In this document: positions 110 through 32,037 of the stretch, piece after piece
Layout: the number at the start of each line of letters is the position of its first letter
How positions within the stretch are numbered: position 1 is the first letter of the stretch
From: Deltaproteobacteria bacterium
Lineage (GTDB): Bacteria > Myxococcota_A > UBA9042
Direction of reading: 5' to 3'
DNA: 34,401 nt
Assembly: GCA_016218865.1 (NCBI GenBank)
Contig: JACRCU010000104.1
Location: forward strand, 1 to 34,401
Notes under the pieces: generated by a model
Told to the model about the DNA's origin: nothing
The model's input: only the letters and a program-made list of their open reading frames with translations
The model's database searches: none
Program-made: the position numbers and the translations under genes

Positions 110-1456
110 CTAATCCCGCGGCTCGACCAGAGTGACCGCCGCACCAAAACGCCCGTCGCGCAGCAGCACCTGCACCTGGTCGCCCACCGCCACGCCGCCA
201 ATGCCCGCCACCGCCGGACCGTCGGCCCGCCGCACAATCGCGTAGCCGCGCTCCAGGGCCGCGGTGGGACTCAGCACCGCCAGCACGTCGCGCCGCCGCT
301 GCCACCACTGCCGGCGCTGGCTCAGCATGGCCCGGCCGGCGGTCAACAGCCGCTGGTGCTGGGCCTCCAACTGGCGCCGCTGCCCCGCCAATTTGCGCAG
401 CGGGTGCGCGATCTGCAGCCGCGACCGCAGCCGTTCGAGCTTGCGCCGCTCGCCGTCCAGCTGCCGCGTCAGGGCCCGCGCCAAGCGCTGCTGCAGGTCA
501 TCCAGCTGCACCGACCGCATCGCCGTCACCGCGTCGCCGCTGCCCAGCCGTGCCTTCAACTGCTGCAAGTGCCGCCGATCACTGCCCAACTGCCGTTGCA
601 CGCTCTGGGCCGCCCGCCGCTGCCACTGCACCAGCCAGGCCACCAGATCGGCGTGGCGCGGCACCACCATTTCGGCCGCCGCGGTCGGGGTCGGCGCGCG
701 GCTGTCGGCGGCCAGGTCGGTCAAAAGCGTGTCGATCTCGTGGCCCACCGCGCTGACGATGGGGGTCTTGCAGGCCGCCACCGCCCGCACCGCCGCTTCT
801 TCGTTGAAGGCCCACAGGTCTTCGGCGCTGCCGCCGCCGCGGCCCACCACGATGACGTCGGCCCAGCCCAGCTGGTCGATGAATTCGATACCGGCCGCGA
901 TCGACGCCGCCGCGCCCTCGCCCTGGACCTTGACCGGCACCACCAGCACCCGCACCGGGCAGCGCTGGCGCAGGATCCGCAGCATGTCGGCCACGGCCGC
1001 GCCGGTGGGCGAGGTGACCAGCGCCACGGTCTTGGGCAGGTACGGCAGCGGCTTTTTGCGGGCGGGGTCGAAAAGCCCCTGGGCGTTCAGCTTTTCTTTC
1101 AGCTGTTGCAGCGCCAGCCACTGCGCGCCCTGGCCGGCCGGCTCCACGTTCTGGGCGATGAGCGCGTAGGCGCCGCCGGGCACCCACACGTCGATGCGCC
1201 CCGTGACGACCATCTGCTGGCCCTCGCGCGGCAGGTGGCGCAGGCGGGCCGCCACGGTCTTCCAAAGCCGCACAGAGAGCTTGCTGCCGGCGTCCTTCAG
1301 GTCGAAGTAGTAGTGGCCGGCCGAGATCGAGATGCGGCTGACCTCGCCCTGCACCCGCACCGCCGGCATGGGCGACAAAAGGCCGCGAATTTGCTCGTTG
1401 ACCGCGGTCACCGTCAGGGCGGTGGACGGCGGCGCAGCTTCGTCGTTCCAGGCCAT
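110..1456 (-). CDS. xseA: Exodeoxyribonuclease VII large subunit
   Basis: This is the catalytic large subunit of exonuclease VII, a cytoplasmic nuclease that degrades single-stranded DNA from either end and works with several copies of XseB. The 448 residues match the usual family length. An N-terminal OB fold (about residues 15-108) is followed by the catalytic core, with the family motifs VVGRGGGSAEDLWAFNEE (203-220), SAVGHEID (235-242) and SRAPTPTAAAE (252-262). A long charged, coiled-coil-like region fills the C-terminal half. The ATG start is supported by an AAAGGA Shine-Dalgarno sequence six bases upstream. It is the last gene of a minus-strand run, 15 bp after the DUF1287-like gene. 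No xseB-like frame is visible in the 109 bp left before the window edge, although xseB commonly follows xseA. Identification is secure. Confidence 0.96.
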   Translation of the reverse strand: MAWNDEAAPPSTALTVTAVNEQIRGLLSPMPAVRVQGEVSRISISAGHYYFDLKDAGSKLSVRLWKTVAARLRHLPREGQQMVVTGRIDVWVPGGAYALIAQNVEPAGQGAQWLALQQLKEKLNAQGLFDPARKKPLPYLPKTVALVTSPTGAAVADMLRILRQRCPVRVLVVPVKVQGEGAAASIAAGIEFIDQLGWADVIVVGRGGGSAEDLWAFNEEAAVRAVAACKTPIVSAVGHEIDTLLTDLAADSRAPTPTAAAEMVVPRHADLVAWLVQWQRRAAQSVQRQLGSDRRHLQQLKARLGSGDAVTAMRSVQLDDLQQRLARALTRQLDGERRKLERLRSRLQIAHPLRKLAGQRRQLEAQHQRLLTAGRAMLSQRRQWWQRRRDVLAVLSPTAALERGYAIVRRADGPAVAGIGGVAVGDQVQVLLRDGRFGAAVTLVEPRD

Positions 1457-1471
1457 GCGGATCCTTTGGAG

Positions 1472-2401
1472 CTACAAGGTAGTGCCAATCGGCCCGCGAC
1501 CCGCGCCCAGATCCAGCGCCTGGCGGATGTGCTCCAGGTGGGCGGCGGTCAGGCGGAAGTGGTGCAGCAGGTTGTAATTGCCGCGGATCGGCAGCTCGCG
1601 CGGCGCGTGGTCGGCCGGGTCCAGGACCAGGATCTGCGGGTTGCCCGCCTCGTCGGCCACGTCGGACACCACCGCCGCCAGTTGCCGCTGCGAGCCGCGC
1701 TTGCGCTGCACGACCACGATGTCGCCGGCCTCGAAGCTGCTCGCCGGCTCCACGGCCACCTTCTCGGCAAAAGTGCCCAGGAACACCAGCAGGTTGTCGG
1801 TCGTCCAGGTGCGGCGGCGCTCGTCCAGCGTGGGCGCCGGCTTGCTGGCCAGCCCGTAGGCCTGCGGGTTGCGCGTCCGGTGCCGCACCAGCGCCGACTT
1901 GAGCGACAGGTTGCCGGCCAGGGCGCGCTCTAGCAGGTCCAGGTGGCTGCCCGAATTGGCGCGCGGATCGTCGACCGAGTAGGTGGTAGGCGTCACCTTG
2001 CGGCCCAGGTGGTCGCGGGCGGTGGCCAGAAGTTGCTGGGCGACCGTCTCGACTTTGGCCTCGTTGCGCGGCCGGGACTTGCTCGCGGGCTCGCCGGGAG
2101 TCGCCACCGGCGCGGGACCGGGCACCGCGGGACCGCTGCCGACCGCCGCCGCGAGCGCATTCGCCGGCACCGCGCCGACCTTGGCTTCTTCGACGTGGCC
2201 GACGCCGATGTGGGTCGCCGCCCCCAGGTCGCGGCCGATCACCCGCACGCCCATGTACGCCACCGCCGCCGCCAGCAGCGCCAGCAGCACGGTCGAGTGG
2301 TTCCAGCTCAGCTTGCGCCGCCGCTGGCCACCCAACACGGGTCGCGATCGATCCTGGTGGAGCCGCACCATCGGGGTGGTCTGCCTTGGCAGCGCCCGCA
2401 T
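1472..2401 (-). CDS. Membrane-anchored DUF1287-like protein
   Basis: This protein has a basic N-terminus, one hydrophobic segment (about residues 35-52), a Pro/Ala-rich linker and a globular C-terminal domain, so the bulk is probably periplasmic. The C-terminal half contains RRTWTTDNLLVFLGTFAEKV, then SFEAGDIVVVQ, AAVVSD and a closing YNLLHHFRL. This order recalls DUF1287 proteins (E. coli YijF type: an RRVPNL-like stretch, GDIV, HIGIVSD, GHYR). The N-terminal CTDV motif of that family is not evident, so it is a divergent member or a look-alike. The function is unknown. Three in-frame starts are possible: TTG at 2410, ATG at 2401 and ATG at 2371. None has a convincing ribosome binding site, and I give the first ATG. 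It is probably cotranscribed with xseA, 15 bp downstream. A 117-bp gap (2411-2527) separates it from trmFO. Confidence 0.6.
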   Translation of the reverse strand: MRALPRQTTPMVRLHQDRSRPVLGGQRRRKLSWNHSTVLLALLAAAVAYMGVRVIGRDLGAATHIGVGHVEEAKVGAVPANALAAAVGSGPAVPGPAPVATPGEPASKSRPRNEAKVETVAQQLLATARDHLGRKVTPTTYSVDDPRANSGSHLDLLERALAGNLSLKSALVRHRTRNPQAYGLASKPAPTLDERRRTWTTDNLLVFLGTFAEKVAVEPASSFEAGDIVVVQRKRGSQRQLAAVVSDVADEAGNPQILVLDPADHAPRELPIRGNYNLLHHFRLTAAHLEHIRQALDLGAGRGPIGTTL

Positions 2402-2527
2402 AGCGCCCAAGGGCGCGCTCGTACCCAGAGCCTGGGGCGTGCTGCGCTGGCGAGGTACGGCGCAGGGGCCCGGCCCGTCAAGGCGTAGATTGTAACTGAT
2501 GGGGATGACGTGACTTTGAAAAAGCCC

Positions 2528-3946
<1,419 letters not shown>

Positions 3947-3949
3947 TTG

Positions 3950-4765
3950 TCATTTTCCTAGGATCGCGGAGTCGAAGTGCGCGACGATCGGACAGTGGTC
4001 CGAGCCCAGCACATGCGCATCGATGCGCGCATCGCGCAAGTGGGGCGCCGCCGCCGGCGAGCACAGCGCCAGGTCGATGCGCCAGCCGATGTTCTTCTGC
4101 CGCACGCCAAAGCGCTGCGACCACCAGCTGTAGGCGCCGGTCGCCGCCGGGTGCACGCGCCGGAAGGTGTCGGTCCAGCCGGCCGCCAGCCAGCGCTCGA
4201 CCTCGGCGCACTCGACCGGCAAGAACCCCGACGTCTCGCGGTTTTCCTTGGGCCGGGCCAGGTCGATGGGCTGTGGCGCGGTGTTCCAGTCGCCCAGCAC
4301 CGCCACCGGGTGGCCCGCGGCGATCTTCTCGGCCGCCAGGTCAAAAAGCCGCTGATAGAACGCCAGCTTGTAGGGCACGCGGTCGTTGCTGCGCTTGCCG
4401 TTCGGCAGGGTCGCGCCGTTGCCGTTGGGGAAGTAGGCCGACACCACCCACAAGTCGCCGAAGCGGGCCCACAACACCCGACCTTCGCAGTCGAATTCGG
4501 GGCGGTCCAGGCCGATGCGCAGCTCGTCCCAGCGCTGGCGGGCGTAGATGGAGACGCCGCTGTAGCCGGCCTTGTCGGCGGCGACGAAGGCGGTGTGCCA
4601 GCCGGCCGGTTCGCGCACCTCGGCGGGCAATTGCTCGGGCTTGGCGCGCACTTCTTGCAGGCAGACCACGTCGGCGTCGCAGGCGTGCAGCCAGGCGGCA
4701 AAGCCCTTGTCGCTGCAAGCGCGCAGCCCATTTACGTTCCACGATGTCAGGGTCAGATTCGGCAT
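3950..4765 (-). CDS. xth: Exodeoxyribonuclease III
   Basis: This is an AP endonuclease and 3'-5' exonuclease of base excision repair in the exonuclease III family. From the ATG at 4765 the protein has 271 residues, close to E. coli XthA. The exonuclease-endonuclease-phosphatase fold motifs are in order: SWNVNGLRA (N10), VVCLQEVRA (E38), YSGVSIYAR (69-76), a Tyr at 111, GDWNTAP (D159, N161) and the terminal GSDHCPI (D256, H257). An in-frame GTG 21 bp upstream (4786) lies between the predicted -10 element and the ATG and would add seven non-conserved residues. The ATG at 4765 fits the family N-terminus. No Shine-Dalgarno sequence precedes it, and the predicted transcription start is within a few bases, so the message may be leaderless. 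It heads the minus-strand run xth-trmFO-DUF1287-xseA. Confidence 0.95.
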   Translation of the reverse strand: MPNLTLTSWNVNGLRACSDKGFAAWLHACDADVVCLQEVRAKPEQLPAEVREPAGWHTAFVAADKAGYSGVSIYARQRWDELRIGLDRPEFDCEGRVLWARFGDLWVVSAYFPNGNGATLPNGKRSNDRVPYKLAFYQRLFDLAAEKIAAGHPVAVLGDWNTAPQPIDLARPKENRETSGFLPVECAEVERWLAAGWTDTFRRVHPAATGAYSWWSQRFGVRQKNIGWRIDLALCSPAAAPHLRDARIDAHVLGSDHCPIVAHFDSAILGK

Positions 4766-4773
4766 GGCGGCGC

Positions 4774-4802
4774 AAGCTAGTCGCACCGCCAGCGGATTTC
4801 AA
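4774..4802 (-). promoter_or_regulatory. Predicted sigma-70-type promoter for xth
   Basis: On the minus strand, TTGAAA (4802-4797) and TAGCTT (4779-4774) are separated by exactly 17 bp. The transcript would start near 4767, almost at the xth ATG (4765). This agrees with the absence of a ribosome binding site there. Confidence 0.5.
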
Positions 4803-4921
4803 CCTTTGTGCGGCAACTGCCGGCCGCGTGTCGGGGAGCTTGCCGCGTCTGCCCCTTGCTGCCATGCTCCGCCGGTCCGGCGCTCGCCCCCCTGGCGCCC
4901 GGAGCCCCTTTGCGAGGCCGC

Positions 4922-7654
4922 ATGCTGCGCTATCTGGTTCCGCTGCTGTTGCTCCTGACCGGCACCACAGGTCTGGTCTACGAAGTGGTGATGGGGCGGC
5001 TGCTGTCGCTGCACCTGGGCTCGTCGGGGGCCTCGCAAGCCGTGACGCTGGCTACCTTTTTGGGCGGCATGGCTCTGGGCGCGGCGCTCGCCGATGGTCC
5101 CGGGCGGCGGCTGGTGCAGCGCCTGGGCCGGCCGCTCGACGCCTACGCGGCGCTCGAAGGCTTCATCGGCCTGTGGGCGCTGGCGTTTCCCTTTGTATCC
5201 GCCGTGGGTTTCGACCTGTTCGTGTCTGTGGCGGGCGGGCTCGACCCCGCGGGCGCCGCGACCACCGTGGCCAAGCTGGTGCTGGCGGCGGCGCTGATCC
5301 TGCCCCTGACTACCGCGATGGGCGCGACGTTGCCGGTGCTGGCGGCGGGCGTGCAGCGGGCCGACGCCGAGCACGGCGTGCAGCTGGTGTCGCGCTACTA
5401 CGTGGTCAACGCCACCGGTGCCACCCTGGGCGCCGCGCTGGCCGGTTTCGTACTGCTCGAGGCCCTGGGTCTGTACCAACCGCTGTACTTGGGCGGCGCC
5501 GTGAACCTGCTCGTCGCCGCGGTGGCGCTGGTGGGGGCGCGCCGCTGGTCCGCGACTGCTCCGGTGCCCGCCGTGGCCACCGAGGGTGCGGAAACTCCGC
5601 CCAGCGACGTGGCGCCGCCCTGGGACCTGATCGTCGCCGCCTTCGCCACCGGTTTCGTGGCCCTGTGCGCCGAAGTGCTGTGGACGCGGCTGGTCGGGTT
5701 GGTGCTCGGCTCGTCGGTGTATGCGTTCTCGTTCATGCTGGTGGTGTCGATCTTCGGGATCTCGCTGGGCAGCGGCGTGGCGGCGGCGCTGATCGGTCGG
5801 GGTGCCAACCCGTCGCGGGTCCTGTCGTTTTCCCAGGCCGGCGCGGCGGCCGCGGCGACCCTGCTGCTGGTGCGCCTGGACGCCCTGCCGGTCGAGCTGG
5901 CCGAGCTGCGCGTCGCCCTGCCGGCACAGATCGACATGTACCCCACCTGGCTGCTGCAGTCGTTCGGCTGGGTGGCGCTGCACTTGCTGCCGGCGGCGGC
6001 GTGCCTGGGCGCCTCGTTTCCGGCACTTCTGGCCGCAGCGCGCGCCCGCGGGGCCAGCACCGATCGCGCCACGGCGCGCATCCTCTCGGCCAACACCATC
6101 GGCAACTTGCTGGGATCCTTGGGCTGCGGCTTCGTGCTGATGCCGGCCCTCGGCATCGAGGGCGCGATGATGCTGGGGGTGGTGCTGTCGCTGGCGGTGG
6201 CGGTGCTGACCATGCCGCGGCCGCGGTTGATGCTCGATGTGGCGGTGCCGGGCGTGACGGCGCTCACGGCTGGCCTGCTGCTGGTGGTGGCGGCGCCCGA
6301 CGGTTTCACCTTGACGGCCGGCCTGTTTCGCCTCCGCGACAAGCAGCCCGAGCAGATCCGCCCGCACCTGGCCGCGCTGCGCAAGCACCTGCGGGTGGTG
6401 TTCCGCCACGACGGCAAGGACGCCACCATCACCGTCAACAGCACGGCCGACGGCTACATGAGCCTGCGCACCAACGGCAAAAGCGACGGCGGCACCTCGG
6501 CGGACATGCTGACGCAGATCTACTCGGGTTTCCTGGGGTTGCTGCATCGGCCGCAGGCGACCAAGGCCTTCGTGGTGGGCTTCGGCACCGGCCAGACTGT
6601 GACGGCGCTGGCCGCCCACCCGCAGGTCGAGGTGCTCTGCGCCGAACTGTCGCCGGCGGTGGTGGACGCGGCAGTCCTGTTTGCCGACGCGAACTTGCGG
6701 GTGTACGAGAACCCGCGCGTGCGCATCCAGGTCGCCGATGCCCGCGAGGTCCTGCGCACGCTGCCCGACCACAGCCTGGACATCATCGCCAGCGAGCCGT
6801 CGAACCCCTGGCTGGCGGGCGTGGCCGACCTGTTCACCCAAGAGGCTTTTGCCCGTATCCATCAGAAGTTGCGCCCCGGCGGCGTGCTGGTGCAGTGGCT
6901 GCAGTCGTACGAGACCAGCGACGACGTGGTCAAGCGCATCGTCTGCACCCTGCAGAGCGTGTTCCCGCACGTGGCGATCTACCGCCTGACCTCGGGCGAT
7001 TTGGGGCTGGTGGCCTCCGATCAGCCGCTGACCATCGACTTCGACAAGGCCCAGGCGCTGCTCGCCCATCCCGAGGTGCAGAAGCTGTTCGACACCCTGA
7101 AGCGCCCGGATCTGCCCAGGACCATGGACGAAGTGCTGTTCGGCCAGCTGTGTGGCGCGCGCACGGTGCAGGCGCTGTGCCAGGGTTTTGCCGACCCGCT
7201 GCGCGAAGAGCGTCCACAGATCGAGTACCGCGCGCCCCGCGACTTCTTTGCCGCGGCCTCGGCCAAGCGGATCGTCCGCCGCCTGGACACGCGCTGCGGC
7301 CCCGATCCCGCCGCCCTGGGCGACACCGATCTGGTGCGCTGGCTGGCGTTGCACCCCATGGACGAGGAGCGCAAGGCCGCGCTGTTCAAGCACATCAAGG
7401 CTGTGAACCATCCCTCCGACACCTCGCTCGGCGGCTCCCTGGTCGAGCCGGCCAAGCTGCCCAAGGCCCTGCGCAAGGATCTGGAAGGGCTGCAACCGTT
7501 CGCCGATGCGCCGGCCGAGAAGCGCCAGGCCACCTGCGCCCAGCTGAAGAAGACCGCCGAGTGGCTGATGAACCAGCCCTACACCATCCTGGGACCCGCC
7601 AGCCGCGACCCCGTCGCCCAGGGCTGGGCCGAGGGCTGCAAGAAGCTGCAATAG
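4922..7654 (+). CDS. Fused MFS-like transporter / spermidine synthase-like protein
   Basis: This 910-residue membrane protein belongs to the fused MFS/spermidine synthase type. The first 500 or so residues contain many hydrophobic helices in two blocks split by a linker, beginning with LTGTTGLVYEVVMGRLLSLH, a signature of the family N-terminus. A soluble domain follows with the spermidine-synthase-type Rossmann motif VVGFGTGQT (551-559), an acidic residue after the next strand (VLCAELSP), VADAREVL, and the family hallmark SEPSNPWLAGVADLFTQEAF starting near residue 624. About 200 further C-terminal residues are not recognised. Whether such proteins make polyamines is unproven. The ATG at 4922 (GAGG seven bases upstream) is preferred over the in-frame ATG at 4808, because residues added by the latter are unlike the family. 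It is divergent from xth, and a gene for an FAD protein follows after 21 bp. Confidence 0.85.
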   Translation: MLRYLVPLLLLLTGTTGLVYEVVMGRLLSLHLGSSGASQAVTLATFLGGMALGAALADGPGRRLVQRLGRPLDAYAALEGFIGLWALAFPFVSAVGFDLFVSVAGGLDPAGAATTVAKLVLAAALILPLTTAMGATLPVLAAGVQRADAEHGVQLVSRYYVVNATGATLGAALAGFVLLEALGLYQPLYLGGAVNLLVAAVALVGARRWSATAPVPAVATEGAETPPSDVAPPWDLIVAAFATGFVALCAEVLWTRLVGLVLGSSVYAFSFMLVVSIFGISLGSGVAAALIGRGANPSRVLSFSQAGAAAAATLLLVRLDALPVELAELRVALPAQIDMYPTWLLQSFGWVALHLLPAAACLGASFPALLAAARARGASTDRATARILSANTIGNLLGSLGCGFVLMPALGIEGAMMLGVVLSLAVAVLTMPRPRLMLDVAVPGVTALTAGLLLVVAAPDGFTLTAGLFRLRDKQPEQIRPHLAALRKHLRVVFRHDGKDATITVNSTADGYMSLRTNGKSDGGTSADMLTQIYSGFLGLLHRPQATKAFVVGFGTGQTVTALAAHPQVEVLCAELSPAVVDAAVLFADANLRVYENPRVRIQVADAREVLRTLPDHSLDIIASEPSNPWLAGVADLFTQEAFARIHQKLRPGGVLVQWLQSYETSDDVVKRIVCTLQSVFPHVAIYRLTSGDLGLVASDQPLTIDFDKAQALLAHPEVQKLFDTLKRPDLPRTMDEVLFGQLCGARTVQALCQGFADPLREERPQIEYRAPRDFFAAASAKRIVRRLDTRCGPDPAALGDTDLVRWLALHPMDEERKAALFKHIKAVNHPSDTSLGGSLVEPAKLPKALRKDLEGLQPFADAPAEKRQATCAQLKKTAEWLMNQPYTILGPASRDPVAQGWAEGCKKLQ

Positions 7655-7675
7655 CTAGAAAGTATTGGACTCGTC

Positions 7676-9367
7676 ATGCAAACCGTTGATGTGCGCCTGC
7701 CGGCCGAGCCGGGCGGACCCACCCCAGAGACCCACCCCGAGCTGCTGGCCCTGACTGCCGAGGCCCTGGGCCTGGCGCCTGCCGACCTGGGCTGCGTGGC
7801 CGTGCGCCGCCGCTCGCTCGACGTGCGCCGCCGCCGCGAGCCGGCCTGGGTGCTGCGGGTCGACGCGTTCCTGGCGGGCGAGACGCCGCCGGGCGACCAG
7901 CTGCCGCCGCTGGTCCGGCCGCGGCATCTGGCCAAGAAATCAAATGGTTTGCACCCGATCATCGTCGGCGCCGGGCCGGCCGGCCTGTTCGCGCTGCTGG
8001 CCTTTGCCGATGCCGGGATCGCCTGCACCCTCATCGACCGCGGCGGTCCGGTCGAGACCCGCAACCTGGCGGTGCGCGATCTGCGGGTGCACGGTCAACT
8101 CAACCCCGAGTCCAACCTGTGTTTTGGCGAGGGCGGCGCCGGCACCTACTCGGACGGCAAGCTCTACACCCGCAGCAAGCACCCGCGCGTCCGCGAGGTC
8201 TACGAGCGGCTGGTGGCGCTGGGCGCCGGCCGCGACATCCTGGTCCAGGCGCACCCGCACATCGGCACCAACCGCTTGATCAAGATGCTCAAGGTGTTGC
8301 GCGAGGCGATGCTGGAGGCGGGGCACACCTTGCACTTCGGCCGGCGCGTCGACGACCTGCTCATCGACACCACCACCAGCCCGGCCAGCGTGCACGGCGT
8401 GATCTTGGACGATGGCAGCGAAGTGCGCGGCGGTCCTGTGATTTTGGCGACCGGCCACTCGGCGCGCGACACCTACCGGATGCTGGCCGGTCACGGCGTG
8501 GCGATGGAGCGCAAGGACTTTGCCGTCGGCGCCCGCGTCGAGCACCCGCAAGCGCTGGTCGACAAGGTGCAACTCGGCCACCTGGCAGGCGATCCGGTGG
8601 TGGGCCCGGCCGAGTACTTCGTGGCCCAGACCGTGCCCGGCGGCCGCGGCGTCTACTCGTTCTGCATGTGCCCGGGCGGCTTCATCTTGCCGTCGCCGAC
8701 CACGCCCGGCTGCCTCAACGTCAACGGCATGTCCAACTCGAACCGCGGCAGCGGCTACGCCAACGCGGCCCTGGTCGCCCAACTCAAGGCCAGTGAATTC
8801 TACTTCGCCAAGCCGGGCGATCTGGACGGCGATCCCGAGTTCGGTGCCCACGTCGCCGGCGGCGCGCTGCTCGGCGTGGCCCTGCAAAACCGCTTGGAGA
8901 AAGCCTGCTTCGTCGCCGGCGGCCAGAACTACTCGGCCCCGGCTCAGTACCTGGGCGACTTTGCTCAAGGCCGCGACACGCCCGAGCTGCCGGCCCACTA
9001 CACCTATCGGCCGGGGCTGGTGCCCGGGCGCATCGACCAGCTGTTGCCGCCGCGGCTGGTGCGCGATCTGCAGCAGGGCGCCCGCCAGATCGACCGTCTG
9101 CAATTCCGCGGTTACCTGTCGCGCGAGGCGGTGATCGTCGGCGTGGAGACCACCACCTCCAGCCCGGTGCGGCTGATCCGCGGCGCCGATCGCCAGTCGG
9201 TGTCGCACGCCGGCCTGTATCCGTGCGCCGAAGGAGCGGGGTACGCCGGCGGCATCGTCAGCTCGGCGATCGACGGCCTGGAAGCGGCCGAGGCGATCCT
9301 GGCGGCGGCCGGTGTGGTCTCGCCCGTGGGCGCTAGCTCCGCCGCTGACGCTCGGTCCCTGGAGTAA
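7676..9367 (+). CDS. FAD-dependent dehydrogenase (COG2509-type)
   Basis: This 563-residue flavoprotein is of the uncharacterised FAD-dependent dehydrogenase type (COG2509; HI0933/GidA-like FAD fold). About 90 N-terminal residues precede the dinucleotide-binding motif IIVGAGPAGLFALLAFADAG (GxGxxG at 98-103). These are followed by an acidic end of strand two (LIDRG), then NLCFGEGGAGTYSDGKLYTR, a stretch conserved in this family, and a late glycine-rich LYPCAEGAGYAGGIVSSAIDG motif typical of the FAD-binding C-terminus. The substrate is unknown. It starts 21 bp after the spermidine-synthase-like gene and is probably cotranscribed with it, although the ribosome binding site is weak. Its last 35 bp overlap the 3' end of the convergent HD gene. 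The family assignment is confident, the reaction is not. Confidence 0.88.
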   Translation: MQTVDVRLPAEPGGPTPETHPELLALTAEALGLAPADLGCVAVRRRSLDVRRRREPAWVLRVDAFLAGETPPGDQLPPLVRPRHLAKKSNGLHPIIVGAGPAGLFALLAFADAGIACTLIDRGGPVETRNLAVRDLRVHGQLNPESNLCFGEGGAGTYSDGKLYTRSKHPRVREVYERLVALGAGRDILVQAHPHIGTNRLIKMLKVLREAMLEAGHTLHFGRRVDDLLIDTTTSPASVHGVILDDGSEVRGGPVILATGHSARDTYRMLAGHGVAMERKDFAVGARVEHPQALVDKVQLGHLAGDPVVGPAEYFVAQTVPGGRGVYSFCMCPGGFILPSPTTPGCLNVNGMSNSNRGSGYANAALVAQLKASEFYFAKPGDLDGDPEFGAHVAGGALLGVALQNRLEKACFVAGGQNYSAPAQYLGDFAQGRDTPELPAHYTYRPGLVPGRIDQLLPPRLVRDLQQGARQIDRLQFRGYLSREAVIVGVETTTSSPVRLIRGADRQSVSHAGLYPCAEGAGYAGGIVSSAIDGLEAAEAILAAAGVVSPVGASSAADARSLE

Positions 9368-10721
9368 TCGCCAGCATTTCTGGGGCCTTTTCGCGCACTG
9401 CCTGCAGGTAGTAGGCCGGCTCGCGCAGCGCCTCCAGCCGTCCGGCATCGCACTCGGCCTCCAGCCACTGCTGGATCCGCCCCAGCCACGGCCCGGCCTG
9501 CAGCTGCGTCTGCTCCAGCACGTAGGTCCCCAGACCCTTGGGCAGCGGCGGCACGCGCTGGGCCTCGGCGATGATCTCGGGGATGCGCCCGGCCAATTCC
9601 GCCGTCAAACCTTTGACTTCTGCGATGCGTCCGGCGCGCTTGGTGGTCCAGTCCGACCGCGAGAATGCCAGCACGTCGTCCAGGTGTTCGCCCAGCTCGC
9701 GCACCAGCCGCCGCACCGCGCTGTCGGTCCAGTCGTTCAGGTAGGCGTTGGCGCGGGCGTGGTGGGCGATCACGTAGGTCACGCGATCGCGCAGCTCGGC
9801 CGGCAGCCGCAGCCGCGCCGCCACGCCTTCCATCAGCAGCGCACCCACCGCCTCGTGGCCAAAGAAGTGCACCTTGCCGTTCCGCACCGTCCGCGTCAGC
9901 ACTTTGCCGGTGTCGTGCATCAGCGCCGACCACCGCACCACCAGCCGCGGTGGGCACTTTTCCACCACTTCCAGCGTGTGGCTCCAGATGTCTTTGTGGT
10001 GCAGCGGGCAGCTTTTGTGGAAGCCCGCCATCGCCACCGCCTCGGGCACCATCACCGTCATGGCACCAAGATCCGCGAGCAATTGCAGGCCATTGGCCGC
10101 ATGTGGCCCCAGCAGCACCGTGTGCAGGACCCGCCGCCAGTCGGCGCGATCGACCAGCAGCCAGCTCGCCGGATCGCGGCGCAACGTCCGCACCACGTCG
10201 TGCGAGGGCTGCAGCCCGGTCCACGCCGCCACCGCCGGCCAGCGCAGGGCCTCGGTAAGGCTCAGTCCCGCCTCACCTTTGCGCGGCCAGCCGGTCTGCC
10301 AGCGCAGGCGACCCTGCTCGGCCTCGGCCAGCGACTCGCCCAGCCAGGTGCCGTCGCCCAGCTGTGCCACCGCCAGCGCGCGGATCGGCTCGTCGGACAG
10401 CCACTGGGTCACCACCGCGGGCCACGGATCGGCGCTGGCACTCACCTCGATCTGCAGCGGCAGACCCGCCGGCGGCGGTGGCGCGTCCGGCCGGGTCAGG
10501 ACTCGCCAGAGGCAAATATCATCAAGAAGTTCGCGGTGATCGGGCAGGGCCGTCGCGTCGAGGACCGTGCCCGCGACCAGGGTCTGCAGCGCCGGCCAGC
10601 CGCGCAGGGCACAGTTGCCCGCGGCCGCCATCCAGGTGCGCAGTGTGGCCAATTGTTCTGGCGCCACGCAGGGGTAGACCCACTCGCTGCCCAACGCCTC
10701 GCGCTCTTGACTGCTCACCAC
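9333..10721 (-). CDS. HD-domain protein related to CCA-adding enzymes
   Basis: This 462-residue protein resembles the C-terminal half of bacterial tRNA nucleotidyltransferases. Residues 195-225 (DWRRVLHTVLLGPHAANGLQ and following) match their RNA-binding helical region. An HD phosphohydrolase domain follows: HHKDIWSHTLEVVEKC (241-256), ALMHDTGK with the HD pair at 269-270, FFGHE (287-291), and VIAHHARAN further on. The N-terminal third should carry the nucleotidyltransferase head, but I find no GGxVRD or DxD motif there. It is therefore probably not a working CCA-adding enzyme; a phosphatase or phosphodiesterase role is more likely. Start: GTG at 10721 (a second GTG follows directly), with GGAGG five bases upstream. 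The 3' end overlaps the convergent FAD gene by 35 bp. Confidence 0.82.
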   Translation of the reverse strand: MVSSQEREALGSEWVYPCVAPEQLATLRTWMAAAGNCALRGWPALQTLVAGTVLDATALPDHRELLDDICLWRVLTRPDAPPPPAGLPLQIEVSASADPWPAVVTQWLSDEPIRALAVAQLGDGTWLGESLAEAEQGRLRWQTGWPRKGEAGLSLTEALRWPAVAAWTGLQPSHDVVRTLRRDPASWLLVDRADWRRVLHTVLLGPHAANGLQLLADLGAMTVMVPEAVAMAGFHKSCPLHHKDIWSHTLEVVEKCPPRLVVRWSALMHDTGKVLTRTVRNGKVHFFGHEAVGALLMEGVAARLRLPAELRDRVTYVIAHHARANAYLNDWTDSAVRRLVRELGEHLDDVLAFSRSDWTTKRAGRIAEVKGLTAELAGRIPEIIAEAQRVPPLPKGLGTYVLEQTQLQAGPWLGRIQQWLEAECDAGRLEALREPAYYLQAVREKAPEMLAITPGTERQRRS

Positions 10722-10847: not shown

Positions 10848-11276
10848 TGAGGAGTCGCGTTGCCTTCCTCCGTCCCCCCGGGGTAGGCAGCTGGGCGACA
10901 GACGGTGGGCGACCGACAAGCAGGTTGCTCGCGAGAGCGCAAGAACCGGCGGAATCGTCCGCACCGAAATGGCTTCAGGATCGCATGCTTTGGCGCGCAA
11001 TCCACCGGGTTCCACCGGCAAGAAGGCCACACGGTAATGAGTCTGCACGGTAGCGATGCCGCGCACTGTTGAACTGAGACGAGTAGAAACAACGAGTTCG
11101 GTCGGGAAGTTGTGTATCCCCCAGTGTCCGGTCGGCCGCCGCGTCGTTACCCCAGCGACCTTGGCCGAGCACCGCAGCGACCCGACACCCAAGCCTGAGC
11201 GCTGGCAACCGCCGCCTTCAGGACGCGACCAACCAGGACCAGCCGCCAACGCCTTAGAGCGCCTAAAGGGGAGACG
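10848..11276 (+). other. Long apparently non-coding leader before the repeat peptide gene
   Basis: About 430 bases lie between the predicted promoter and the repeat peptide gene. The base composition is less GC-rich in places than the coding regions. Short frames exist on both strands, but none combines a ribosome binding site, a family match and typical codon usage. I could not recognise SRP RNA, tmRNA, RNase P RNA, or a riboswitch. It could be a structured 5' leader or a small RNA, or simply spacer. Confidence 0.4.
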
Positions 11277-11591
11277 ATGAAGAAGACCCTTCCGAAGTTG
11301 AAGAAAAGCGCAGCCGACTTCCTGTCTCCGGAAGAGGGGGCGATCAGCGAGAAGCAGGAAGCGCGCGTGTCGACCTTCTTGACCCTGTCGAGCGGCGACG
11401 GCAGCGTGCTGCCCGGTGGCGACGTCAACCTGTCGGCCGAGCACTGCAGCCACGGCTCGCACGGTTCGCACGGCAGCCACGGCTCGCACGGCTCGCACGG
11501 CAGCCACGGCTCGCACGGCAGCCACGGCTCGCACGGCAGCCACGGCTCGCACGGCAGCCACGGTTCGCACGGCTCGCACGGCTCCTGGTAG
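11277..11591 (+). CDS. Ser-His-Gly repeat peptide, HxsA/RiPP-precursor-like
   Basis: This gene encodes a 104-residue peptide of two parts. Residues 1-57 form a charged, leader-like segment (MKKTLPKLKKSAADFLSPEE at the front, a Gly-Gly at 47-48 and a single Cys at 57). Residues 58-102 are fifteen perfect Ser-His-Gly units, and the chain ends Ser-Trp. The frame is supported by AAAGGGGAG (11265-11273) just before the ATG. The arrangement, a leader plus a C-terminal His-Xaa-Ser repeat, recalls HxsA precursors of the His-Xaa-Ser system, which are associated with radical SAM proteins HxsB and HxsC. No radical SAM enzyme, HxsD or peptidase is encoded in this window, so modification is inference only. 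A metal-binding (Ni, Zn, Cu) His-rich peptide is the main alternative. There is no signal peptide or membrane segment. The gene stands alone between two long non-coding stretches. Confidence 0.75.
   Translation: MKKTLPKLKKSAADFLSPEEGAISEKQEARVSTFLTLSSGDGSVLPGGDVNLSAEHCSHGSHGSHGSHGSHGSHGSHGSHGSHGSHGSHGSHGSHGSHGSHGSW
11448..11582 (+). repeat. Fifteen 9-bp tandem units encoding Ser-His-Gly
   Basis: The array is fifteen contiguous 9-bp units of the form Ser codon-CAC-GGC/GGT. Ser is AGC in units 1, 4, 7, 9, 11 and 13 and TCG in all others. This gives higher-order blocks of 27 bp (AGC-TCG-TCG: units 1-3, 4-6, 13-15) and 18 bp (AGC-TCG: units 7-8, 9-10, 11-12). GGT replaces GGC in units 2 and 13. 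There are no spacers, so it is not a CRISPR array. Confidence 0.97.
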
Positions 11592-12286: not shown

Positions 12287-12823
12287 CTAGGCCTCGCTCA
12301 GCCCCAAGCCCTGAGCGAGCGGCCCGCGCAGCCGTTCGAGCAACCGCTTGTGGGCGCGGCCGAGGGCATCGGCACTTTCGCCGACCAGTGCGGCGGCCTC
12401 GTTCAGGCTGCGATCGCCGTAATAGACCTCGCGCAGCACCAGCGCCTCGCGGGTGCTGAGGTCGCGGCCCACCTGCCGCAGCACCTGCCGTACCGCCAGC
12501 GGGGTCGACGTGCGCTGCAGCGGCGCCGTGGCATTGCGCGTCGCCAGCACCTGGCGCAGATGGGCCAAACGCCGCTCGCGGCGGAGCAGGTCGCGGGGCT
12601 GGCCGTACATGCGCCAATAGGCGTGGGTCAGCGCGCGCGGGCCGCGGGCCGGGTCGAAGCGCGCCATGCTCTGGGCGAAACCAAAGAGCGCCTCGGCGCG
12701 CAGTTCGCCGGCGGCCGCGCCGCTGTGGCTCAGCCGACCGGCAATGGTGCCGGCCAAGGTCAGGAAGTCGAGCGGTTGGCTGTGGCGGCAAGCCAGGCTA
12801 TACGTTGCGGCGGTCGGAGTCAC
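12287..12823 (-). CDS. Sigma-70-like RNA polymerase sigma factor (divergent)
   Basis: From a GTG at 12823 this gene encodes 178 residues resembling a compact sigma-70-family factor. Residues 40-85 read like region 2: LRAEALFGFAQSMARFDPAR, then G-P-R-A-L-THAYWRMYGQPRDLLRRERR. Compare the family pattern FDPxRGxxFxTYAxWWIxxxIxxxLRRxxR. Residues 108-168 fit region 4: DLSTREALVLREVYYGDRSL, then NEAAALVGESADALGRAHKR, a helix-turn-helix. Region 3 appears minimal. The start is set by GGAGG, five bases upstream of the GTG. Upstream extension of the frame would run into the promoter of the divergent L,D-transpeptidase gene. Which promoters it reads is unknown. Its neighbours are the repeat peptide gene (convergent, 700 bp away) and the transpeptidase (divergent). 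A non-sigma DNA-binding protein is the alternative. Confidence 0.72.
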   Translation of the reverse strand: MTPTAATYSLACRHSQPLDFLTLAGTIAGRLSHSGAAAGELRAEALFGFAQSMARFDPARGPRALTHAYWRMYGQPRDLLRRERRLAHLRQVLATRNATAPLQRTSTPLAVRQVLRQVGRDLSTREALVLREVYYGDRSLNEAAALVGESADALGRAHKRLLERLRGPLAQGLGLSEA

Positions 12824-13002
12824 GGGGCCCTCCAGAGCGCCGACGGCCGGCGCGGGCGGCCGAACGAACAGCAAGAAGCGTGCCGCAGTTGGTCGACGGC
12901 GATATTTCTCCGTCGTTATCCGCAGATGGGTGGTCAAACGTGAGGTGAAATCGCCGCGATGGCTGGGGTCGCCCGTCCCCAGGGTCGGCGGTCGCGATTT
13001 CG

Positions 13003-13030
13003 TTGACGCCGGCTGTGCTTCGATTATCGT
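13003..13030 (+). promoter_or_regulatory. Predicted promoter for the L,D-transpeptidase gene
   Basis: TTGACG (13003-13008) and TATCGT (13025-13030) are 16 bp apart. Transcription would begin near 13037, giving a leader of about 27 nt before the ATG at 13064. Confidence 0.5.
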
Positions 13031-13063
13031 CACCTCGCCGGCCCAAGCCGGCCGCGGGTCGCG

Positions 13064-15034
13064 ATGCAGTACAGCCACAATCGTCTTGGAAACCTACAGC
13101 ATTTTCTGGCAGCGCTGGTCGCGCTGGCCGGTCTGGCGGGTTGCGAAGGCCAGGATCAGCCCAAGAAGCCCACTGAGGCGGCGGCTCCCCAGGCCGAGTC
13201 CGCGCCCGCGCCCGTGGCGGCGCCGGCGCCCAAGCTTGCCGACATCGTTCAGAAAATCGCCATTGCAGCCAAGAAGGCCGCCGACGACGAGGCCGCGACC
13301 GTGGCCAAGCAGCAGAAAGCGGCGGGCGCCGACAAGAAGCTGCTGGAGCTGGTTGCGCCGAGCGGTACGCTGCGTTTCTACAGCCGCGACGGGACGTTGA
13401 GCAAGGACGGCGCCGACGTGCTGGCGCTGCTGGCCGAGCTCGATCGCCACGGCCTCGACAAGTCCGGCTATCGGCTGGGACAGATCGATCAGGCGACCGC
13501 GGCGGTGCCCCAGGCCTTTGCCGAAGAGCGCAAGATCTTGCTGACGCTGGAGAAACAGCCCCGGGCCGCCCTGGTGGCGGCGGCGGCGGCCCTGTGGTTG
13601 CGCGGCGGCGACGGGAGCGCGGTGGCCCTGTCGCGGGCTGGGGCCGAACAGCTGGGCGAGAACGGCCTGCGCGCCCTGGATGCGGCCGTGCCGGCGCTGG
13701 CGGTGGCGGCCCAGAAGTCGCGCGAGGCGCTGATCGCCGCCGATCAGGAGCTATTGCGGGCGGCGGCGCGCTACGTGGTCGACTTCGACTACGCCAACCC
13801 GGCCCATCCGCTCAAGTACACGCCGCCGGCGGAAGTGCGCAAGATGACGGAGAAGAACGCCGAGGCGATCGCCAAGGTGTTCAAGGACAACCAGGGCAAG
13901 CTGGGCGACGGCTTGAAGAAGCACTGGCCGAACCACCCGCAATACGTCTTGCTGCAGGGCGCTTACGACACCTACAAGAAGCTGGTGGAGGCGGGCGGCT
14001 GGCCGGCGCTGCCCAAGCTGACGGCCAAGCAGGTCAAGAAGGGCGAGATCGGCCCATACATCGTGGCACTGCGGCAGCGTCTGCAGGCCGAAGGCTACGA
14101 AGTGGGCAGCGGCGATCGCTTCGACGACGATCTGGAGGCCGCTGTCAAAGCGTTCCAAGGCCGCCACCAGCTGGACCCGGACGGCATCGTGACCGCGACC
14201 GTGCACAAAGAGCTGGAAGTAACAGCGGAAAAGCGCTTGAGGCTGATCCAGCTCGCCATGCAGCGCTACCGCGAGTCCGAAGGCAAGATGGCGGGGGACG
14301 ACGACTTTTTCCTGTTCGTGAACATTGCCTTCCAGATGCTGTGGGTCTACGACCACGGCGCGATCGTCGACAAGCACAAAGTGATCGTGGGCAACAACGA
14401 CACCGACAGCGATCAAGTCAGCGCGGTCAAGGGCAAGATCAACCGGACCAAGATGTTCTCGCACAAGATGGTGCGGGTGATCCTGGCGCCGAAGTGGTTC
14501 CCCACCTCGCGGGTCGTCGAGCTGGAGCTGCAGCCCAAGCTAGCCAAGGACCCGAGCTTCTTGGAGAAAGAGGGCTACGTCCGCGAGGTACAGCCCGACG
14601 GGACCGAGAAGTGGTACCAGAAGGCCGGCAAGTCGAACCTGCTGGGCGACGTGAAGTTTCAGGGGCCGAATGCCTTCAACATCTACCTGCACGACACGCC
14701 GTTCCGCGAGAAATTCTCGTTTGCGCGCCGGCCCTTCTCGCACGGCTGCGTGCGCGTCCACAAGCCGGTGGATCTGGCCGAGCTGATCCTGGGGCGCGAC
14801 AAGGGCATGAGCGCTCGGGAAATTCGCGACATCATCCAAGAAAAAGAAGAAAAAGAGATCAAGCTCAAGACCCCGCTGTCGGTGCACATCGACTACGCCT
14901 CCGCGGGGGTCGACGAAGAGGGCAACGTGATCTTCGGCGCCGATATCTATGGCTACGATCAAGCGTTCTTCGACGGCGTGCTGCCGGTGGAAGAGGCCAA
15001 GGAATACAAGGCCGGCTCGACCCGCGGCCTGTGA
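13064..15034 (+). CDS. Lipoprotein L,D-transpeptidase with peptidoglycan-binding domain
   Basis: This is a 656-residue envelope enzyme of the YcbB/ErfK (YkuD) type, which forms 3-3 peptidoglycan cross-links or attaches proteins to peptidoglycan. A lipoprotein signal ends at LAGLAGC, with Cys27 as the lipidated residue. It is followed by an Ala/Pro/Lys-rich linker and a helical region. A peptidoglycan-binding type 1 domain lies at about residues 328-385 (IGPYIVALRQRLQAEGYEVG and a following DPDG). The YkuD catalytic domain holds the motif PFSHGCVRVHKP, with His560 and catalytic Cys562. Upstream His in YLHDTP (about 543) also fits the fold. YcbB-type enzymes share this domain order of N-terminal scaffold, PG-binding domain and YkuD domain. 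The residue after the lipid Cys is Glu, not Asp, which would favour the outer membrane under the E. coli +2 rule. The start has a weak ribosome binding site. Confidence 0.9.
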   Translation: MQYSHNRLGNLQHFLAALVALAGLAGCEGQDQPKKPTEAAAPQAESAPAPVAAPAPKLADIVQKIAIAAKKAADDEAATVAKQQKAAGADKKLLELVAPSGTLRFYSRDGTLSKDGADVLALLAELDRHGLDKSGYRLGQIDQATAAVPQAFAEERKILLTLEKQPRAALVAAAAALWLRGGDGSAVALSRAGAEQLGENGLRALDAAVPALAVAAQKSREALIAADQELLRAAARYVVDFDYANPAHPLKYTPPAEVRKMTEKNAEAIAKVFKDNQGKLGDGLKKHWPNHPQYVLLQGAYDTYKKLVEAGGWPALPKLTAKQVKKGEIGPYIVALRQRLQAEGYEVGSGDRFDDDLEAAVKAFQGRHQLDPDGIVTATVHKELEVTAEKRLRLIQLAMQRYRESEGKMAGDDDFFLFVNIAFQMLWVYDHGAIVDKHKVIVGNNDTDSDQVSAVKGKINRTKMFSHKMVRVILAPKWFPTSRVVELELQPKLAKDPSFLEKEGYVREVQPDGTEKWYQKAGKSNLLGDVKFQGPNAFNIYLHDTPFREKFSFARRPFSHGCVRVHKPVDLAELILGRDKGMSAREIRDIIQEKEEKEIKLKTPLSVHIDYASAGVDEEGNVIFGADIYGYDQAFFDGVLPVEEAKEYKAGSTRGL

Positions 15035-29415: not shown

Positions 29416-29467
29416 GCGCGACCACCGGGAATAATCGACAATCGAGCGGCCTTGCACGGGGTGCCCC

Positions 29468-29495
29468 TTGCGCGGGCGTGGTTTCTCCTTAGAAT
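29468..29495 (+). promoter_or_regulatory. Predicted promoter for the VKOR fusion gene
   Basis: A good -10 box TAGAAT (29490-29495) follows a weak -35 TTGCGC (29468-29473) after 16 bp. The transcript would start near 29502, some 50 nt before the ATG. Confidence 0.45.
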
Positions 29496-29553
29496 TGCCC
29501 GCCGCCTGCCCTTGGGTGCGGCGCTCGCTTTCTCGTGCTGTCTGGAGTTCCTC

Positions 29554-32037
29554 ATGGCCAAAGACCTTGGCAATCCGCCACAATCGTCGCCCTCTGCCGC
29601 CACGCCAGCGGCGAATACCAACTTGCTGTACGGCATCTTGCTGCTGACGGCGGTAGGTATCGGTGTGTCGATCTACCTGCTGCGCCACAAGTTGCACATC
29701 ACGCTGGACCCCACCTATACGTCCAGCTGCAACCTGGGCGGCGCGATCAACTGCGACAAGGTGAACGTTTCGGGCGCCAGCGAACTGTTCGGCCTGCCGA
29801 TCAGCTTCTACGGCATCCCCACTTACCTGGTACAGCTGTACCTGACGGTGCTGGCTCTGCGCGGCCGCACCAGCCACGACCTGGCCAAAGTGGGCGAAAA
29901 GGCTCTTGACGCCGTGGCCGGCATCGGCCTGTTGACCAGCGGCTACTCGCTGTTCCTGGCGCTCTACAGCTCGGCCGTGGTCGAGGCCTACTGCCTGTAC
30001 TGCATTTCGCTGTACATCGTGAACTTTGGCGTCACCGCGCTGGCCATCGCCGCGGGACCCAAGACGGTGGCCAACACCATCCAGCGCTCGCTGGCCCTGC
30101 TGGTGTCGTTCGATCAGCCGGTGACCACGGCGCTGCTGGTACTGGTGATCGGCGCCGGCGGCGGCTGGCTGGGCTACGACCACAGCCGCGCTTCGCTGGA
30201 AGCCGAGTACAAGGCCAAGATCGACGCGGCGTTTGCCGGCGGGGATCAGGCGCTCAAGGCCGATGCCGGGTCGCCGTCGACCGCCCAGGCTGGCGCCAAC
30301 AACGTGGCCCCGCAGGCCGCCCAAGTGGCCCAGGCTCCGGCCGCCCGCCCCACCGGCGAGTGCGGCAAGCCCATGGGCAAGAAAACCGAAGACGGCTGGA
30401 CCATTTACGAGCCCTGCCTGGACGAGGAAGACATCCGCGACGCCTATGGCGCCAAGGACGCCAAGGTCACCGTGGTCAAGTACTCCGACTTCGAGTGCCC
30501 CTACTGCCGCTACCTGGCCATGACCATGGAGCCGCTGAAGCCCAAGTACAAGGACAAAGTCCGCTTCATCATGAAGCACTTCCCGATGAACCCCAGCTGC
30601 AACAAGTACATGGCGGGCTACGACAAGCACCCCAACACGTGCTTTGCCCACGCCGCCGCCCTGTGCGCCGGTCGCCAGGGCAAGTTCTGGGACATGCACG
30701 ACAAGCTCTATGCCAACCAGCCCAAGCTGGACGCCGAGACCGACCGCAAGGCCGCCGAAGAGCTGGGCCTGGACATGGCCAAGTACGACGCCTGCCTGAA
30801 AGACCCCAGTGTACAAGCCAAGTTCAACAAGGACATCGACGCGGCCTACGCCGCCGGCATCTACGGCGCGCCGCGCACCTACATCAACGGCCGCATGGTC
30901 ACCGGCTCGGCTTCCACGGCGATCTTGGAGTACTACATCCAAAAGGCGCTGGAGAATCCCACCTCGGCCGCGGCCCAGCAGCCGGTGGCGATGGCGCCCA
31001 AGCCCGACGGCAGCCACATGATCGCCGCCAAGACCAGCAAGGGCGCGTTCTACATCGACGCCTACGAAGCCGCCGTCACCAAGGACGGCAAGGCCGTGAG
31101 CCTGCCCGACGTGGAGCCGGCGATTGCGTCCTGGACCGAGGCTACCGACGCCTGTGCCAAGGCTGGCAAGCGCCTGTGCAGCGAAGAGGAGTGGGTCTCG
31201 GCCTGTGCCGGCGCCCTGCAGGTCGACAACAACAACAACCAGCAGTTCGCCGACGACGACGTCGAAGGCAACATGTACCCCTACGGCACGTTCTACGAGG
31301 CCGGCACCTGCGTCGACCAGGAAGACAAGTACAAAGGCAAGGCGCAAAAGACCGGCGCCAAGGCCAATTGCCGCACGCCGTCGGGCCTGTTCGACCTGGC
31401 CGGCAACATGGGCGAGTGGTCGGGGGTCACCAAAGAAACCGCCGGCCTGATGGGCGGCCACAACAATTCGGGCGAGCGCGCCGCCTGCAACCAGCGGTCG
31501 GCCAGCTTCGGCGTGGGCAACCGCAACCAGACCACCGGCTTCCGCTGCTGCGCCGACAAGGACGTGGCGCAAGGCAAGGTCAGCGCGAGCGATTTGAAGG
31601 GCGGCGACACCGACATGGTCGGCAAGCCGGTGCCGGCGTTCAAGGCCAAGGACTCGAACGGTCAAGAGATCGACTCGGCGCAGTTCAAGGGCAAGGTCAC
31701 CTTGGTCAACTTCTTTGCGTCGTGGTGCGGCCCGTGCAAGAAGGAGTTCCCCGAGCTGGTCAATCTGCAAAAAGAACACAAGGCCAAGGGTTTCCAGGTC
31801 ATCAGCATCGGCGTCGACCGCGAAGAAGGCCGCTCGCTCGAATTTGCCAAGGGCTTCGAAGCGCCCTGGGGCATCATCGCGGACGCCGAGAACGAGCTGA
31901 TGGGCAAGTTCAACGTCTACTCGATGCCGGCGACCTTCCTCGTCGACCGCCAGGGCGTGGTGCGGTTCTACGACACCGGCTTCAAGCCCGAAGAGCAGCT
32001 GCAGAAGCTGCGCGACGCCATCGCCAGCTTGCTCTGA
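29554..32037 (+). CDS. VKOR / DsbA-like / FGE-like / TlpA-like fusion protein
   Basis: This 827-residue protein joins four modules. Residues 22-205 are a vitamin K epoxide reductase-like membrane domain, with the loop pair C59 and C67 (SCNLGGAINC), the active-site motif CLYC (C147, C150) and several membrane helices, the last about 188-207. After an Ala/Pro linker, residues 300-465 form a DsbA-like thioredoxin domain with CPYC (315-318) and a cis-Pro loop at GAPRTYING (P440). Residues about 495-668 resemble the formylglycine-generating-enzyme/sulfatase-modifying-factor fold: SWTEATDACAKAGKRLCSEE, GLFDLAGNMGEWSG and TGFRCC. Residues 685-827 are a TlpA/ResA-like thioredoxin with WCGPC (724-728) and cis-Pro SMPATFLVD. 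The inferred role is periplasmic thiol oxidation coupled to quinone. TGGAG six bases before the ATG sets the start. A glycosidase gene overlaps its stop codon by one base. Confidence 0.88.
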   Translation: MAKDLGNPPQSSPSAATPAANTNLLYGILLLTAVGIGVSIYLLRHKLHITLDPTYTSSCNLGGAINCDKVNVSGASELFGLPISFYGIPTYLVQLYLTVLALRGRTSHDLAKVGEKALDAVAGIGLLTSGYSLFLALYSSAVVEAYCLYCISLYIVNFGVTALAIAAGPKTVANTIQRSLALLVSFDQPVTTALLVLVIGAGGGWLGYDHSRASLEAEYKAKIDAAFAGGDQALKADAGSPSTAQAGANNVAPQAAQVAQAPAARPTGECGKPMGKKTEDGWTIYEPCLDEEDIRDAYGAKDAKVTVVKYSDFECPYCRYLAMTMEPLKPKYKDKVRFIMKHFPMNPSCNKYMAGYDKHPNTCFAHAAALCAGRQGKFWDMHDKLYANQPKLDAETDRKAAEELGLDMAKYDACLKDPSVQAKFNKDIDAAYAAGIYGAPRTYINGRMVTGSASTAILEYYIQKALENPTSAAAQQPVAMAPKPDGSHMIAAKTSKGAFYIDAYEAAVTKDGKAVSLPDVEPAIASWTEATDACAKAGKRLCSEEEWVSACAGALQVDNNNNQQFADDDVEGNMYPYGTFYEAGTCVDQEDKYKGKAQKTGAKANCRTPSGLFDLAGNMGEWSGVTKETAGLMGGHNNSGERAACNQRSASFGVGNRNQTTGFRCCADKDVAQGKVSASDLKGGDTDMVGKPVPAFKAKDSNGQEIDSAQFKGKVTLVNFFASWCGPCKKEFPELVNLQKEHKAKGFQVISIGVDREEGRSLEFAKGFEAPWGIIADAENELMGKFNVYSMPATFLVDRQGVVRFYDTGFKPEEQLQKLRDAIASLL

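Follow-up and report, generated by a model that had tools for sequence, protein, structure and literature searches.

A candidate His-Xaa-Ser repeat precursor encoded apart from its putative maturases in a lake myxobacterium

The closest described relatives of the locus analysed here are the His-Xaa-Ser systems, which were reportedly introduced by Haft and Basu in 2011 as a set of HxsA, HxsB, HxsC and HxsD. These systems have so far been defined by sequence only, and the literature that we searched yielded no biochemical product for any Hxs system. Among rSAM/SPASM enzymes, reported bonds run from C2 of His to Cβ of an Ala two positions on (HaaB) and from C4 of Phe to Cβ of Ser (MscB; review PMC11002830). 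A repeat-core RiPP is represented by the poly-cyclopropylglycine TvgA/TvgB system, where the rSAM/SPASM maturase is clustered with its precursor (PMC9062424). The gene described below lies in a 34,401-nt stretch of DNA (the window), and its sequence points to an unlinked variant of the known, chemically unsolved His-Xaa-Ser system with an unexpectedly constant repeat number.

The host is a lake myxobacterium, and the small protein it encodes ends in sixteen His-Xaa-Ser triplets. Its open reading frame, hxsA4, was read directly from the window and has an ATG start and 104 codons for amino acids. The features of the gene are as follows (window positions).

11267..11273 (+): Shine-Dalgarno sequence AGGGGAG, three bases before the ATG, read directly
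11277..11591 (+): hxsA4, putative 104-aa His-Xaa-Ser repeat precursor, 91.6 bits to HxsA4 (NF038313) over residues 5-104
11277..11441 (+): predicted leader, residues 1-55, from alignment with 27 other members; dN/dS ~0.04-0.35
11442..11450 (+): first HxS unit, His56-Cys57-Ser58, from the alignment of 28 members
11451..11585 (+): core of fifteen His-Gly-Ser units, read directly; 15 units in 18 of 21 family orthologues
11586..11588 (+): C-terminal Trp104, invariant in 28 of 28 aligned members

An earlier note on this DNA had described a small gene with a strong Shine-Dalgarno sequence, fifteen perfect SHG units, a single Cys57 and a terminal Ser-Trp, all of which can be read directly, and the SHG array was the top-scoring tandem repeat in the whole window. 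The note had also let a 57-residue leader end in this cysteine. Cys57 is indeed the only one, but it does not lie outside the core: it sits in the first HxS unit, where His56 and Ser58 are invariant and Cys57 is nearly invariant across the 28 aligned members, so that it is as much a core residue as a leader residue. Because the third residue changes in distant relatives (HSS, HAS, HTS and HVS at loci L047, L028 and L051) and His and Ser do not, the conserved register is His-Xaa-Ser, that is, one HCS plus fifteen HGS making 16 units, followed by Trp. The leader carries the family motif KKxLPKLKKxAADFLSxEEGAISxKQExRVSTFL.

Orthologues with the same leader, for which the earlier note had proposed a check, were found in every genome of the host's family (f1) that was searched; two of these orthologues are truncated at contig ends. 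Leader dN/dS was ~0.04-0.17 against the closer genomes and ~0.12-0.35 against the most distant ones, which indicates purifying selection. The family-wide orthologues and this selection on the leader together confirmed that hxsA4 is a real gene and that its array did not arise by chance. A GGGGA-type ribosome site was kept in most family orthologues; the other upstream DNA was not alignable, and no shared upstream or promoter motif was found among the orthologues beyond the ribosome site.

Profile searches placed the protein in the HxsA4 family (NCBIfam NF038313, curated cut-off 55 bits, 93 model positions), with its 91.6 bits spanning model positions 2-93, and the 28 aligned members share the family's layout of a leader and an HxS repeat core ending in Trp. 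Other precursor models stayed below their cut-offs (HxsA3, 42.5 versus 65; HxsA2, 20.4 versus 48), and the original HxsA model (TIGR03979) gave 6.5 bits versus 121.65; the HxsA-type assignment proposed earlier thus stands, though by way of HxsA4 and not of the original model. No second HxsA4 was detected in the host genome, where the suggested search for other peptides sharing residues 1-57 returned only weak, low-complexity matches. More distant relatives were seen in an omnitrophote, in elusimicrobia, in the bacterium of L047 and on an archaeal contig, with HxsB-like genes nearby. The sole Pfam match was Collagen (34.5 bits versus a cut-off of 27.2), and glycine occupies every third residue of the array, as it would in a collagen-like or purely structural Gly-Xaa-Yaa protein. 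We consider this reading highly improbable, since the repeats lack Pro, the match follows from the glycine periodicity, and the conserved leader and HxsB partner are foreign to collagens. Moreover, Gly at every third residue does not hold across homologues: distant members that have HxsB nearby retain His and Ser and carry Ser, Ala, Thr or Val in place of Gly.

At most f1 loci, hxsA4 is flanked by an HD-domain gene on one side and a sigma-factor gene on the other, the latter followed by an L,D-transpeptidase gene; at some short or divergent f1 loci one neighbour gene was not recovered. The neighbours in the window are the following.

9333-10721 (-): HD-domain gene
12287-13078 (-): sigma-factor gene (Sigma-70 family), region 2 over the cut-off, region 4 weak
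13064-15034 (+): L,D-transpeptidase gene

The sigma-factor gene keeps its position across much of f1 and is divergent in sequence. The same neighbourhood (HD-domain gene, hxsA4, transpeptidase gene) was seen at L014 in a record titled Klebsiella pneumoniae, apparently a mislabelled myxobacterial MAG. Elsewhere in the window, positions 29452-32037 (+) encode an unusual thiol-redox fusion of 861 aa with VKOR, DsbA-like, FGE-sulfatase-like and redoxin parts. A search for plasmid carriage gave no match. The neighbours of hxsA4 matched HD-domain, sigma-factor, L,D-transpeptidase and FAD-protein families, and no local maturase was found among them. The statement of the earlier note that no maturase is adjacent therefore holds for the window; it does not extend to the genome, where a cluster of HxsB, HxsD_rel and rSAM genes occurs on another contig, C179. 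HxsB was identified there by TIGR03978 (505 bits versus a cut-off of 370; match G000:C179:5554-6954). The host assembly is 82% complete and split into 576 contigs. The cluster (locus L126 on C179) reads as follows.

355-1332: rSAM-like protein without CxxxCxxC (pseudo-rSAM)
1456-3456: rSAM protein of 666 aa (rSAM666)
3460-4695: rSAM protein of 411 aa (rSAM411)
4774-5244 (+): HxsD-like protein, TIGR03976 43.3 bits versus 50
5263-5499: HxsD_rel, NF038315 68.8 bits versus 41
5503-7017: HxsB gene
7217-8614 (+): two short proteins just 3' of hxsB, signal-peptide-like starts, no family match

Homologues of HxsB, HxsC and HxsD had been suggested as a check on the host genome, and only HxsB exceeded its cut-off. 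rSAM666 and rSAM411 are canonical rSAM proteins; they are nearest to HxsC and HxsC4 and lie far under both thresholds, the best cluster protein reaching 103 bits versus 267.9 for HxsC (TIGR03977) and 102.6 versus 500 for HxsC4 (NF038332). The sub-threshold HxsD match covers most of the model, and a protein over this cut-off is present in 40 of the 110 relatives. HxsD_rel is single-copy in the host genome and confined to the C179 cluster. A conserved acidic C-terminal tail, DDxxDFLDDPLGIAVPWEEK, was noted in the HxsD-like protein, and the two short proteins after hxsB look outer-membrane-like by eye and are kept in several f1 genomes. AlphaFold models of HxsD-like (pLDDT 83.8) and HxsD_rel (93.2) showed related small alpha/beta folds: the former is beta-beta-alpha-beta-beta-alpha with weak matches (E above 0.001) to RPB11/RpoL subunits in the PDB, and the latter gave weak ferredoxin-like and KH matches. 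We had asked whether HxsD might be a RiPP recognition element of the winged-helix type; neither model is winged-helix, so HxsD is not obviously such an element, the fold call itself being uncertain.

The order pseudo-rSAM, rSAM666, rSAM411, HxsD-like, HxsD_rel and HxsB is kept across f1, apart from some genomes in which one piece is absent or was not recovered. Judged by coordinates, HxsA4 and HxsB are immediate neighbours on one contig in 14 genomes, which belong to 9 families; 39 genomes from 9 other families, f1 and the host itself included, have the two on different contigs. The distant genome G055 (L138) has the same six-gene order, HxsB and the HxsD pair included, running straight into hxsA4 and then a further rSAM gene, and shorter versions adjoin hxsA4 in 13 other genomes. 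An intermediate arrangement was found in G026, where hxsA4 adjoins pseudo-rSAM and rSAM666 and HxsB is on another contig. In the relative G010, hxsA4 is at 149.4 kb of C42 and HxsB at 170.4 kb of the 208-kb contig C39; if L012 (contig 42 of 50, 240 kb) is C42, as matching coordinates suggest, the two genes would be at least ~126 kb apart.

Co-occurrence was tight. Among 110 genomes, 51 had both HxsA4 and HxsB, 3 HxsA4 only, 6 HxsB only and 50 neither (Fisher p 9e-21), and the corresponding counts for 35 families were 16, 0, 3 and 16 (p 3e-7); these p-values ignore relatedness among genomes and are indicative only. Fragmentation or scores near the threshold mark most of the nine exceptions: in G003 and G012 a contig end interrupts hxsA4, a sub-threshold hxsA4 stands beside HxsB in G053 and G074, HxsB is in two pieces in G050, and completeness is 58% for G016 and 68% for G051. 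The remaining two are G054 and G105, the latter being the only genome with HxsC over the cut-off.

These comparisons suggest that the Hxs enzymes of C179 very probably modify the HxsA4 peptide, an assignment that draws on synteny in other lineages and on co-occurrence because the two loci are physically separate in the host. The genome does encode many further rSAM proteins (the HxsC model by itself gives 16 matches), and some related genomes have a second HxsB, so that enzymes other than the C179 cluster could act on the precursor. This is decidedly unlikely given the G055 arrangement and its shorter versions, and given that the single-copy marker HxsD_rel does not occur outside C179. The second HxsB copies themselves, seen in several f1 genomes (L128, L186-L191), have no HxsD or HxsA4 nearby, and no precursor was seen beside them; a repetitive stretch in L190 that was considered as one proved to be the gene of a Val-Pro-Asp rich protein read in a different frame.

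The peptide might instead act unmodified, its 16 His chelating zinc, nickel or copper without any maturation, as the composition of the core and the lack of an adjacent maturase in the host lineage would allow. We regard this as unlikely, because HxsA4 keeps so closely to HxsB across genomes, including linkage in cis elsewhere, and because distant members vary the third residue and conserve Ser no less strictly than His, which plain chelation would not require. The reading that we prefer, and hold to be likely, is a RiPP-type HxsA4 precursor, guided by its leader and matured in trans by Hxs enzymes encoded elsewhere. The earlier suggestion of processing by enzymes encoded elsewhere is borne out to the extent that the HxsB/HxsD_rel/rSAM cluster is on another contig in the host and directly adjoins hxsA4 in relatives.

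The repeat number turned out to be nearly fixed. Exactly 15 SHG units were found in 18 of 21 f1 genes (exceptions 11, 11 and 18), and 16 His, with the HC unit included, was the mode of the 67 arrays counted (30 arrays). Of the earlier expectation that the leader would be conserved while repeat number varies, only the first half survived. Serine codons fall into two classes, AGY and TCN, that are not interconverted by a single silent change. In sixteen orthologues with 15 units, the class differed at 6.68 of 15 positions per pair versus 7.06 expected after shuffling, that is, in 45% of core comparisons versus 4% at leader serines. Scrambling so close to chance implies that the array was rearranged to near saturation with its length unchanged, and a fixed count of 15 despite such rearrangement leads us to infer selection on array length. 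Length-neutral gene conversion could in part account for the constancy instead. The assemblies are drafts, in which a perfect repeat that exceeds the assembly word can break a contig, and higher counts may be under-seen; short arrays should escape this bias, and counts of 12-14 were not seen in f1.

We propose that the leader (~residues 1-55) would recruit a multi-enzyme maturase made of HxsB, a second and third rSAM/SPASM protein related to HxsC/HxsC4, the degenerate rSAM-like protein without CxxxCxxC, HxsD-like and HxsD_rel, and that this set would modify the 16 His-Xaa-Ser units in trans. A His-to-Ser bond in each unit is plausible because the HaaB and MscB bonds have been reported (PMC11002830). 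The chemistry that we tentatively favour, by analogy with His-containing triceptides and with less than even confidence, is an i/i+2 bond that joins the His imidazole with the Ser beta-carbon and is repeated along the array; with a fixed unit number, the product would have a defined length. More doubtful still is the fuller picture in which several trans-acting rSAMs would turn the 16-unit array into a rigid, cross-linked and perhaps metal-loaded rod of defined length, with the 15 HGS units held by selection and Tat export of the folded product in some lineages.

Leader removal, export and function of the product are matters of speculation, and neither a leader protease nor an exporter for HxsA4 was identified. 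By eye, f2 and f5 leaders have a hydrophobic stretch ending in ALA and f8 leaders one ending in ALG; f1 leaders have neither an ALA-type stretch nor a twin-arginine motif. The HxsA4 of G053 (L171 6016-6525 (-)) has a twin-arginine, Tat-like motif, TRRNFLSKTGW (TRRNFLSKTGWAVLAASGVA), inside its leader by eye, which suggests Tat export of the finished product there. Proteins with twin-arginine-like N-termini were also seen beside hxsD at L138 8121-8693 (-) and L172 4798-5421 (-), in cis-type clusters and with no Pfam match.

The analysis assigns a likely enzyme set to an apparently orphan substrate. Precursor and maturases are often unlinked in the host's phylum, and genome mining that is based on neighbourhood would miss the link. 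A repeat count that stays constant through near-complete Ser codon scrambling predicts a product whose length matters.

Among characterised systems, TvgA/TvgB resembles the present one in pairing a repeat-core, RiPP-type precursor with an rSAM/SPASM maturase; it differs in its motif, HxsB falls in another rSAM cluster (PMC9062424), and the Tvg maturase is clustered with its precursor. Triceptides with His motifs (HaaB, YhhB) likewise combine an rSAM/SPASM enzyme with a three-residue aromatic-Xaa-Xaa motif, whereas HxsB reaches only 67.4 bits to YhhB (cut-off 445) and 45.7 to AmcB (cut-off 425), scores that do not make it a maturase of triceptide-type three-residue cyclophanes. To the His-Xaa-Ser system the present locus is tied by an HxsB over the cut-off, HxsD-type small proteins, extra rSAMs and an HxS repeat substrate; it departs from that system in HxsC and HxsD models under their cut-offs, in an unlinked precursor, and in two HxsD-type and three rSAM-like proteins besides HxsB. 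Closest of all is the HxsA4 family, which the protein matches over its full length and above the cut-off, with leader, repeat core and terminal Trp, and within which the f1 gene differs by standing alone in a conserved slot between HD-domain and sigma-factor genes with its repeats nearly locked at 15.
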